A stretch of DNA of 64,000 bases from Lachnospiraceae bacterium (GTDB lineage Bacteria; Bacillota; Clostridia; Lachnospirales; Lachnospiraceae): contig JAQXTA010000044.1 in the NCBI GenBank assembly GCA_029219245.1, positions 1-64,000 of the forward strand. The letters run 5' to 3'. The notes beneath the pieces are model-generated. The model saw only the letters and a list, made by a program, of their open reading frames with translations. It made no database searches and had not been told where the DNA came from. Below are positions 59,498 to 60,930 of the stretch, one piece after another. The number at the start of each line of letters is the position of its first letter. Positions within the stretch are counted from its first letter, which is position 1. Made by a program: the position numbers and the translations under genes.

Positions 59498-59628
59498 GGT
59501 CTATACATTTGAAAAAAAATGTGGCATACTAAAAGAACATATATTCGATTTACGAATAAGGAATTTAGATTTGCACAATAATATTTAGTTAAAAGTAGGT
59601 TGTGGAAGTAATACGAGAGGAACCTCAT

Positions 59629-59946
59629 ATGCAGATGATGGAACAGGAGTATCGAATTTCGTGCATGCCTAAAAAAGATGAGAATGGCAAAGTAAAAGTA
59701 AGTGACATTAAATTTAGAACAAATAGTGAATCGATTATTCCTTATATAGAAGTTAATTTTGATGCATCAAAACACAACATAGTGAAAAGTATAATAGTTG
59801 GGCCTAAGTCGAATATGAATAATAGAAATTTATGGCTACTTATGAAAAGTCAAGGATTTAAATGGGTAGAGCAGGGAGAAGATTGGACTTTAGATGATAG
59901 ACGTTGGCAACAACATGTGAAAATATCAAAGGCAACATATCGATGA
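59629..59946 (+). CDS. C-terminal fragment of a DUF2971-like protein
   Basis: A 105-residue product. From about residue 35 it resembles the C-terminal part of DUF2971 proteins: IIPYIEVNFDASKHNIVKSI, IIVGPKSNMNNRN, LLMKSQGFKWVE and a final ISKATYR. Intact DUF2971 proteins are about 250-300 residues and have an N-terminal half missing here, so this is probably a gene remnant, or a small gene derived from one. GAGAGGAA lies about seven bases before the ATG, so it may still be translated. Codon use is A/T-richer than that of the core neighbours, suggesting acquired DNA. Confidence 0.55.
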   Translation: MQMMEQEYRISCMPKKDENGKVKVSDIKFRTNSESIIPYIEVNFDASKHNIVKSIIVGPKSNMNNRNLWLLMKSQGFKWVEQGEDWTLDDRRWQQHVKISKATYR

Positions 59947-60145
59947 TAAATAGCTTTGTGAGCCTAAATAAACCAACATCTGTAATTACATATGGTAAAC
60001 GCGGGAAGGACAAATTTATGGGAATTCTTCCTCAAAATATAGTGGAATATACCTATATGACTTTATAATATAGGTGCTTCGAAAGCAAAGGCTAAAAATA
60101 TATTATTTAAGAGACAAAGGAAATAGATTCTTTCGTAAATGTCTG
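59947..60145. other. A/T-rich stretch without a recognised gene
   Basis: No open frame with coding character was found. A weak hairpin ACCTATA/TATAGGT lies near 60049-60076. The region probably consists of decayed accessory DNA between the DUF2971 fragment and the RNA unit. Confidence 0.4.
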
Positions 60146-60174
60146 TTGAAAATAAGGTAAATATCTGATATTAT
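60146..60174 (+). promoter_or_regulatory. Promoter of the structured RNA
   Basis: TTGAAA (60146-60151), 17 bp, TATTAT (60169-60174): a near-consensus sigma-A promoter with its start about 60181, directly in front of the structured region and not close to any start codon. Confidence 0.7.
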
Positions 60175-60180
60175 CATATT

Positions 60181-60328
60181 GAACAGTGAAGGCGATGGTC
60201 GTTCGGCTCATCGTTGGAGTTCCCAACAGAGAGTTGGTTCGCTCTCCCGAATAGGCGAAAGCTGAAAGCAAAGGAACCATTTTTACGAAAGCCAGAATGC
60301 TCCTAGTCGAAAGATTAGGAGCATTTTA
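60181..60328 (+). ncRNA. Candidate structured small RNA with pseudoknot and terminator
   Basis: A transcript of about 145 bases is bounded by a consensus promoter and a strong terminator. Hairpins seen: CGATG/CATCG (60193-60197, 60209-60213), GTTGG/CCAAC (60213-60217, 60223-60227), and GAGAG/CTCTC (60229-60233, 60242-60246). The last loop contains TGGTTC (60235-60240), which can pair with GAACCA (60274-60279) as a pseudoknot. The terminator is AATGCTCCTAGTC-GAAA-GATTAGGAGCATT followed by TT. I could not match it to a known RNA family. The interrupted PBECR4-like nuclease gene begins 18 bases after the terminator, as toxin genes do after type III antitoxin RNAs; the link in function is inference. 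Confidence 0.6.
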
Positions 60329-60345
60329 CATTATGGAGGGAAATA

Positions 60346-60930
60346 TTGAATCCATTATTAGAGAAATATGATGATTATATGCGCCTGAATGGGTTTGCAA
60401 TAAAGTACGAGTTGTCCGATGGAACATGTATTGAAGTTACATATAAAGAAGAAAATTTCCTTCACTTGCTTGGACTACATAAACTGCAAGATATACAGCT
60501 TATTTAATTCTGGACAGATAGAAATAATAAAACAGTTAAATTAAAAGATGTTATCAGGAAGATTAGGAATGAAGATTTTACAGATAGTGATGTCAGAGCG
60601 AGTTGTTTCTTTAAAGATATAGAGTATAGATATAATAATTTTACCTATGATAATCTAACTACTTTAAATTATACGGATGTCATTATAAATTTTAATGCCA
60701 AATTGATACATTCGGTTTTAAAAGGCGATTATATTTTGTTTGAAGAAAGACCAACAGGTGAATATAATCACATGAGTGTAGCACTTGATAAAAATACTGG
60801 GAATAGATATGTGGAAAGTTTTTTTCATGAGCAGGGAAACAAATATTTAAATGGGCAAAGGGTTCTCCCAATAAAGAAATTTGTATTACTAGATGATAAA
60901 GGAAATGAATTTCTATCTGATACATTTTAA
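60346..60930 (+). pseudogene. PBECR4-like nuclease gene with in-frame stop
   Basis: TTG 60346 with GGAGGG five bases upstream opens a frame of 194 codons broken once, by TAA at 60505-60507 (a CAA codon would need one change). Before the stop the product holds IEVTYKEENFLHLLGLHKLQ, the characteristic start of the PBECR4 domain (phage Barnase-EndoU-colicin E5/D-RelE-like nuclease 4). After it come VKLKDVIRKI, FFKDIEYRYNNF, NFNAKLIHSVLKGDYILFEE and HMSVALDKNTGNRYVESFFH. The family call is from memory of such proteins. Codon use is A/T-rich, unlike the core genes. Readthrough or restart at 60763 would give only a fragment. It is probably an inactivated toxin or phage-defence gene. Confidence 0.6.

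Follow-up and report, generated by a model that had tools for sequence, protein, structure and literature searches.

A drum-related RNA upstream of PBECR4-family genes in Lachnospiraceae and other Firmicutes: a putative type III-like toxin–antitoxin unit

Results

Organisation of the locus

The window, by which we mean the whole 64,000-nt stretch of a Lachnospiraceae bacterium genome analysed here (GCA_029219245.1, contig JAQXTA010000044.1, positions 1 to 64,000), carries on its forward strand, between positions 60146 and 60930, a promoter followed by a structured RNA, a hairpin and a broken open reading frame (ORF). The promoter (TTGAAA-N17-TATTAT, 60146–60174, with TTGAAA at 60146–60151 and TATTAT at 60169–60174) is present as originally predicted. 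The RNA (60181–60280) is composed of helix P1 (60181–60184/60219–60222), a kink-turn (60185–60190/60216–60218), P2 (60191–60198/60208–60215), P3 (60229–60233/60242–60246) and P5 (60254–60256/60261–60263), with two pseudoknots. Pseudoknot 1 (60235–60279) pairs the P3 loop UGGUUC (60235–60240) with GAACCA (60274–60279) and had been proposed from the sequence beforehand; pseudoknot 2 (60202–60251), which pairs the apical loop of P2, UUCGG (60202–60206), with CCGAA (60247–60251), was absent from that proposal, and it covaries. When RNA and terminator were folded together as 151 nt (60180–60330), stability exceeded that of shuffled sequences (z = −3.5; 1/200 shuffles as stable).

The terminator-like hairpin (60296–60325) has the anticipated 13-bp stem (60296–60308/60313–60325) and GAAA loop; its U tract is short and weak, and a consensus terminator scan gave 0 sites. 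The ORF adjoins this hairpin as stated, with a gap of 20 nt, not 18, between hairpin and start codon. It starts with TTG at 60346, reaches an in-frame stop at 60505–60507 after 53 codons (first piece, 60346–60507) and thereafter remains open to 60930 (remainder, 60508–60930, 140 codons). Directly upstream of the RNA–ORF pair lies a 114-aa ORF (59602–59946) with 0 Pfam matches at E up to 1, which may be debris of a lost gene.

The broken ORF belongs to the PBECR4 family

The suspicion that this ORF is a PBECR4-like nuclease gene carrying a stop was borne out by Pfam PF18813: the first piece alone scored 25.6 bits against a cut-off of 27, and the frame including its stop 32.4 bits, over that threshold. 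The second piece alone had no Pfam match; it is homologous to the C-terminal parts of intact relatives, matching two genomes of the same genus at 46% and 45% identity, with a weaker third match at 30%. PF18813 was found at 27–103 bits in 7/8 scanned proteins of relatives (31.0 in L133, 42.9 in L135), and the scan of L140 gave no match. Across 75 full-length PBECR4 proteins the His and Gly of an HLxG motif are invariant, and a later position is Ser or Thr in 67 and another residue in 8. PBECR nucleases are described in the available text of PMC5512222 as predicted RNases with a His plus Ser/Thr active site; the conserved His and Ser/Thr columns of PBECR4 would correspond to this site, and PBECR4 is a predicted endoribonuclease. 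The window keeps the His of HLxG in the first piece and a Ser in the second. Its stop may be real decay or an assembly error, because the quality of metagenome-assembled genomes varies.

As had been noted from the sequence, the protein is not ToxN-like: comparison of sequence profiles of PBECR4 (13 proteins) and ToxN (6) gave an hhalign probability of 0.3%. Scanning four proteins against known defence and NCBIfam families yielded only ZorC, at E 0.05, and a PDB sequence search with PBECR4 returned no significantly similar solved structure. Among 14 control genomes, PBECR4 was present in Lactococcus lactis alone.

The window RNA is a divergent relative of drum

The window RNA region matched no Rfam family at Rfam's own cut-offs. 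In a permissive scan of 371 nt (60050–60420), RF02958 (drum) matched 60181–60280 with 29.7 bits (E = 7.5e − 4), failing the covariance-model gathering score of 43, and the remaining matches to other families were at chance level. Two relatives of the same subfamily were likewise below threshold (L137, 30.0 bits; L142, 29.5 bits), and for L134, L139, L140 and L150 no RF02958 match was listed at E up to 1. Nevertheless, the RNA shows the drum architecture, namely P1/kink-turn/P2, a P3 loop pseudoknot, and UAG plus P5. The kink-turn signature given for drum in the available part of PMC8191799 (Table 1: C:G at −1b:−1n, A:G at 3b:3n, G:U at 4b:4n) is also that of the window subfamily, whereas the sequences of P1, P3 and the pseudoknots differ from those of canonical drum.

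Four proteins related to that of the window, used as queries against named genomes, recovered 28 loci, mostly in Lachnospiraceae; cultured hosts included Acetivibrio ethanolgignens, Anaerovorax odorimutans and [Clostridium] aminophilum. A window-type RNA stood at the expected place in 26/28 loci, and 20 of these RNAs precede an open frame of 191–198 codons, in keeping with the forecast of intact relatives elsewhere. Of the other two, L159 has a canonical drum (74.9 bits) in place of the window-type RNA, and upstream of L160 no RNA was seen. Two neighbourhoods deserve mention in their own right: a Rfam 6A RNA, exactly at cut-off, lies about 65 nt before the window-type RNA of L139 (2219–2269), and two tRNA genes, a possible integration site, are found directly upstream of the RNA–PBECR4 pair of L142 (1944–2243).

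For alignment A4 we left out L148, which contains N, and the two loci without a window-type RNA, L159 and L160. With both pseudoknots included, the structure paired 95.6% of cells across 26 sequences, the window among them, and 17/31 pairs changed on both sides; the covariation score was 0.398 against 0.180 (sd 0.010) for shuffles, with 0/500 as high. The conserved stems with compensatory changes, at a constant distance from intact genes, that the original prediction called for are thus present. Slid versions of the structure paired 25–52% of cells, a comparison that favours the proposed structure as it was read off the same sequences; on the other side, MAFFT shifted the 5' strand of P3 by one column in the window-type rows, lowering P3 to 86%. 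Pseudoknot 1 was paired in 94.9% of cells; one of its six pairs is double-changed (UA to CG, 9 cells) and the rest are nearly invariant. Three pairs of pseudoknot 2 are double-changed, each in one sequence, with support coming from L140 and L150 only. Canonical drums show many distinct complementary versions of this second helix: it scored at least 5 in 28 of 33 sequences (31 over cut-off and 2 below, near-copies included) versus 21.6% of 1004 cross-pairings, with anchors picked to suit each sequence's own loop and therefore favouring own pairings.

A covariance model of the window subfamily (R1), built from sequences that include the window, matched five canonical-type drums (E 1.6e − 6 to 1e − 3), the best background match in 18 × 20 kb having E 1.1. 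Among 30 canonical drum sources it gave E below 1 in only 11, and 1e − 3 or better in 5. The proteins encoded behind window-type and canonical drums matched each other with an hhalign probability of 97.8%. Judged by the sub-threshold RF02958 match, the covariation in 26 sequences and the reach of the subfamily model into some canonical drums, the window RNA is a divergent relative of Rfam drum.

Drum and PBECR4 are linked across genomes and plasmids

Drum and PBECR4 were searched for independently of each other. Drum was found at 10 places in 6 genomes out of 41 relatives, and at 25 places in 20 genomes out of 392 of the order, where search filters lose weak matches. Pooled, these 35 places, which are database draws with near-copies present, include 31 that reach the Rfam cut-off. 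PBECR4 lies directly downstream on the same strand in 25/31, according to an HMM built from Pfam-found genes including these loci; the Pfam model itself finds all of these but L054 (24/25). The distance from drum to the start of the HMM match was 36–68 nt; in a tandem arrangement of two drums, the outer one (L012) lies 298 nt away. By eye, PBECR4 remnants follow two further over-cut-off drums (L050, L052), and four of the 31 (L006, L013, L062, L059) have no trace of PBECR4 nearby; of the four drums below cut-off, two have PBECR4. The tandem pair (L009/L012, G001:C25:28335–28691, minus strand), the sole one among the 31, has a terminator-like hairpin after each drum and one PBECR4 gene behind.

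Viewed from the protein, the linkage was complete within one clade. A drum-like RNA precedes each of the 28 drum-clade PBECR4 genes whose frame is intact and whose upstream DNA could be read, and the situation envisaged as damaging to the prediction, intact homologues lacking any such RNA, was not encountered there. The RNAs comprise 21 found by RF02958 in the two genome searches (20 over cut-off, one at 42.8 bits), two more by RF02958 (43.0 and 38.0 bits), one by model R1 and four window-type RNAs. The drum clade is here a 36-protein branch of the PBECR4 tree, whose member L116 has only 46 nt upstream. Two truncated genes of the clade, L111 and L125, have no RNA. Just outside it, on long branches, are L119, an intact protein with no recognisable RNA upstream, and L035, whose upstream DNA is too short; L114, L028 and L110 have no upstream RNA assignable to any class.

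Counting the tandem pair as one, 30 drum loci over cut-off divide into 20 with an intact nuclease, 6 with a broken one (L005, L048, L050, L052, L054, L064) and 4 with none. An RNA with a broken or absent nuclease thus occurs at 10/30 drum loci, and an intact drum-clade nuclease without RNA in 0/28. Among 398 phylum-wide genomes, drum occurred in two, once followed by PBECR4 and once as an orphan (L183), and PBECR4 in four, the window and G052 included. Several of the orphan RNAs (drums L006, L013, L062, L059 and L183, together with L210 and L217 of class T, described below) have a terminator-like hairpin; by eye their next genes vary and include RadC-like, membrane protein, MATE and GNAT genes.

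With one drum-type protein as query, PBECR4 was found in 21 plasmid records, 19 of them from Enterococcus. In all four plasmid records examined, two of which are near-identical, a drum over cut-off stands directly upstream of PBECR4 (46.4–51.8 bits); the plasmid hosts of the pair are Enterococcus and Streptococcus suis. On the E. faecalis plasmid pEFM9-2 (L164) the pair is directly followed by a gene whose annotation is AbiH family, which hints at a defence cluster. Phage carriage was considered and rejected: viral contigs yielded 0 loci related to the window subfamily, and 0 phage records matched the one drum-type query.

Other PBECR4 clades carry other RNAs in the same place

Upstream of PBECR4 genes that have no drum, further structured RNAs occupy the same place. 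Class T, recognised by eye at 31 loci, is built of three hairpins (H1, H2, H3); behind every hairpin come an A-rich segment and one short strand (x1, x2 and x3, respectively), with loop pairings H1–x3, H2–x2 and H3–x1. Alignment A5 comprises 28 of the 31 and omits L087, whose first hairpin could not be seen, L085, which lies at a contig edge, and L072, a duplicate of L071. Across these 28 sequences 98.5% of cells were paired and 15/26 pairs changed on both sides; the covariation score was 0.354 against 0.141 (sd 0.010) in shuffles (0/500 as high), slid versions paired 26–48%, and the number of further pair types was not above that in shuffles (275/500). For both the window subfamily and class T, chance structure as the source of the folds was rejected on the basis of shuffles and slid pairings. 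Class U (6 loci) has two tandem H-type pseudoknots, with 7-bp loop helices in both units of four loci and in one unit of L118, and of only 4 bp in L126. The original remark that tandem RNA repeats are lacking accordingly holds for drum and fails for sister PBECR4 clades, which do have tandem pseudoknot units. Neither class gave an Rfam match of note (one scan covered 15/31 T and 3/6 U loci, and another covered more).

A class T model, searched in 100 genomes, found 11 places in 8 genomes, two of which had contributed to the model. At four of the seven places scoring 70 bits or more, PBECR4 lies 69–80 nt downstream (one with a stop); of the other three, L212 has a remnant by eye, and L210 and L217 have no PBECR4, both with a terminator-like hairpin. 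Among the four weaker places, L218 is followed by PBECR4 with one stop, the only PBECR4 near L213 is 1.2 kb off on the opposite strand, and L214 and L215 have none.

The RNA class follows the PBECR4 protein clade. On a tree of 75 proteins, RNA class labels assigned by eye changed 11 times, against 40.9 in shuffles (0/200 as low), and drum and window-type drum share one branch (support 99/93). Neither label T (5 changes) nor label W (2) forms a single clade, as unclassified proteins or class V are interspersed. Classes W (L099, L104, L105, L115, L117) and V (L022, L025, L033) are further leader RNAs before PBECR4; the members of sufficient length to enter the tree (3 and 2) group together in one branch. 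Two separate observations concern L186 (G712:C1:2472687), where a PBECR4 of another lineage of the phylum is preceded by yet another leader and, 28 nt ahead of its start, by a strong terminator-like hairpin, and L032 (2267–2361), where a truncated PBECR4 gene is followed at a distance of about 800 nt by a skipping-rope RNA.

Promoters and terminators

In the window subfamily, a −10 hexamer (at least 5/6 matches) begins exactly 12 nt upstream of the base at which RNA pairing starts in 25/26 sequences, the window included, compared with 16/130 control windows, and the RNA therefore probably starts at P1; a −35 hexamer (at least 4/6) was found in only 12/26. Canonical drums have a −10 at that place in 0/29; their best offsets, in at most 10/29, are 38–43 nt before P1, leaving room for an additional leader hairpin. 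An extra hairpin outside the Rfam model was seen by eye between promoter and drum P1 in L161–L164.

A fold-based finder placed a terminator-like hairpin 3–45 nt before the start codon in 60/80 PBECR4 genes, 17/19 ToxN genes and 16/247 background genes (from 18 stretches). The same finder gave 22/26 for the window subfamily, with L154 and L158 left out, and 2/45 for genes of the window. The PBECR4 set derives from 92 extracted places (25/27 and 65/68 from two Pfam-model scans, plus 2 from another search), after removal of G086, of the window where it recurred and of second fragments from a gene already included; 12/92, with proteins shorter than 90 aa or less than 120 nt of upstream DNA, fall outside the count. 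A cruder finder, later replaced, had reported strong hairpins at 45/80 PBECR4 genes versus 9/292 genes.

Discussion

Starting from the observed parts and their order, the linkage and co-inheritance of RNA and protein, and an RNA structure established by covariation, we consider it likely that the locus represents a type III-like toxin–antitoxin unit, in which the drum RNA neutralises PBECR4, a predicted nuclease unrelated to ToxN by profile. Transcription from its own promoter would yield a short, doubly pseudoknotted drum RNA ending mostly at the terminator, with occasional read-through controlling the supply of PBECR4 mRNA. The RNA would bind PBECR4 and keep the nuclease inactive, and loss of the RNA or of its transcription, as might follow phage attack or plasmid loss, would free the nuclease. 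In the window the nuclease gene has a stop, but the promoter, all RNA helices and the terminator hairpin are kept, so that probably the RNA half alone works there.

An unlikely, though not trivial, alternative is that the RNA acts only in cis, as an attenuator, riboswitch or autoregulatory protein-binding site governing read-through into PBECR4, with no role in trans. Its position in the 5' leader, with a terminator ahead of the gene, is that of attenuators, and the available text of PMC8191799 reports folding of the drum kink-turn in Mg2+ and its binding to an L7Ae protein in vitro. Yet the RNA family found at this position changes from one PBECR4 clade to another; such clade-specific RNAs, pseudoknotted in the three classes whose structure was resolved, look more like protein-binding partners than like sensors. 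Moreover, Rfam classes drum as sRNA and not as cis-reg, and the RNAs, several with a terminator, persist after the gene has been lost or broken. This one-sided decay (10/30 versus 0/28) favours an antitoxin over a leader, as an antitoxin may outlive its toxin but not the reverse, and is suggestive only, because homology searches favour intact genes. A cis-acting role may also be partly true, since type III antitoxins do both jobs.

It is more improbable still that the RNA acts as a positive partner, with PBECR4 needing it as a guide or cofactor for activity. Co-inheritance and the 28/28 intact drum-clade proteins with RNA would fit such a role equally well, but an RNA that outlives its protein at 10/30 drum loci is unexpected of a cofactor, and RNA variation falls largely in pairing partners, not in a free guide-like stretch. 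Mere co-carriage on mobile elements without interaction, suggested by the scattered distribution of the pairs and their presence on plasmids, is strongly disfavoured by an order, strand and 36–68-nt spacing that stay constant across families and onto plasmids, and by the match of RNA class to protein clade.

The type III-like reading invites comparison with ToxIN, CptIN and TenpIN. According to the available text of PMC5086642, type III loci consist, in order, of a promoter, a pseudoknotted RNA, a Rho-independent terminator and a nuclease gene. The drum–PBECR4 locus has the same promoter–RNA–terminator–nuclease order, and drum, class T and class U RNAs are all pseudoknotted. The differences are that drum normally occurs as one copy, containing a kink-turn and two pseudoknots, where the known systems have an array of short repeats, although the sister PBECR4 classes T and U do have repeated units, and that PBECR4 is not homologous to ToxN by profile comparison. 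In C. difficile AbiF–RCd22, the Rfam abiF RNA is an antitoxin that neutralises AbiF by direct binding (PMC12373285, available text). That system likewise has an Rfam RNA motif and a terminator upstream of a toxin gene, here a putative one; the protein family and RNA differ, and AbiF was characterised experimentally, whereas the drum–PBECR4 pairing comes from sequence analysis. For PBECR, the available text of PMC5512222 describes RNases within the polyvalent proteins of phages and conjugative elements, which also occur solo. By comparison, the PBECR4 genes considered here are solo, have an upstream RNA, and are both chromosomal and plasmid-borne.

Drum RNA was reportedly first described by Weinberg in 2017. 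The first description lies outside the literature covered, and an earlier remark on its neighbour or pseudoknots is possible. We found no published function for drum, and no partner gene or toxin is named in the available text of PMC8191799, PMC7657543, PMC7779021 and PMC11974997, nor is a link of drum to a toxin or neighbouring gene made in the titles and abstract openings of the partly covered literature, in which PBECR4 is likewise not mentioned by name. The objection that the window RNA might belong to an Rfam family unrelated to toxins does not apply, as the family is drum, with PBECR4 as its regular neighbour.

Extending this reading beyond drum, we think it fairly probable, with somewhat less confidence than for the locus itself, that PBECR4 serves as the toxin in a second superfamily of RNA-neutralised nucleases, one independent of ToxN and equipped with at least three different pseudoknotted antitoxins, namely drum, the class T ring and class U. 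In the uncatalogued class T, three hairpins with one local and two swapped pseudoknots would let the chain ends close a ring, a one-molecule counterpart of the ToxIN triangle that would hold several nucleases; in the equally uncatalogued class U, two tandem H-type pseudoknots would serve as the antitoxin.

With drum found ahead of PBECR4 in many gut bacteria and on plasmids, an orphan Rfam RNA gains a partner and hence a testable function; two covarying RNA structures that match nothing in Rfam 15 are added. A nuclease family described as cargo of phages and conjugative elements becomes linked to putative toxin–antitoxin or phage-defence modules on plasmids and chromosomes of Firmicutes. Taken together, this suggests that RNA-neutralised nucleases arose more than once, from unrelated proteins and with different RNAs.
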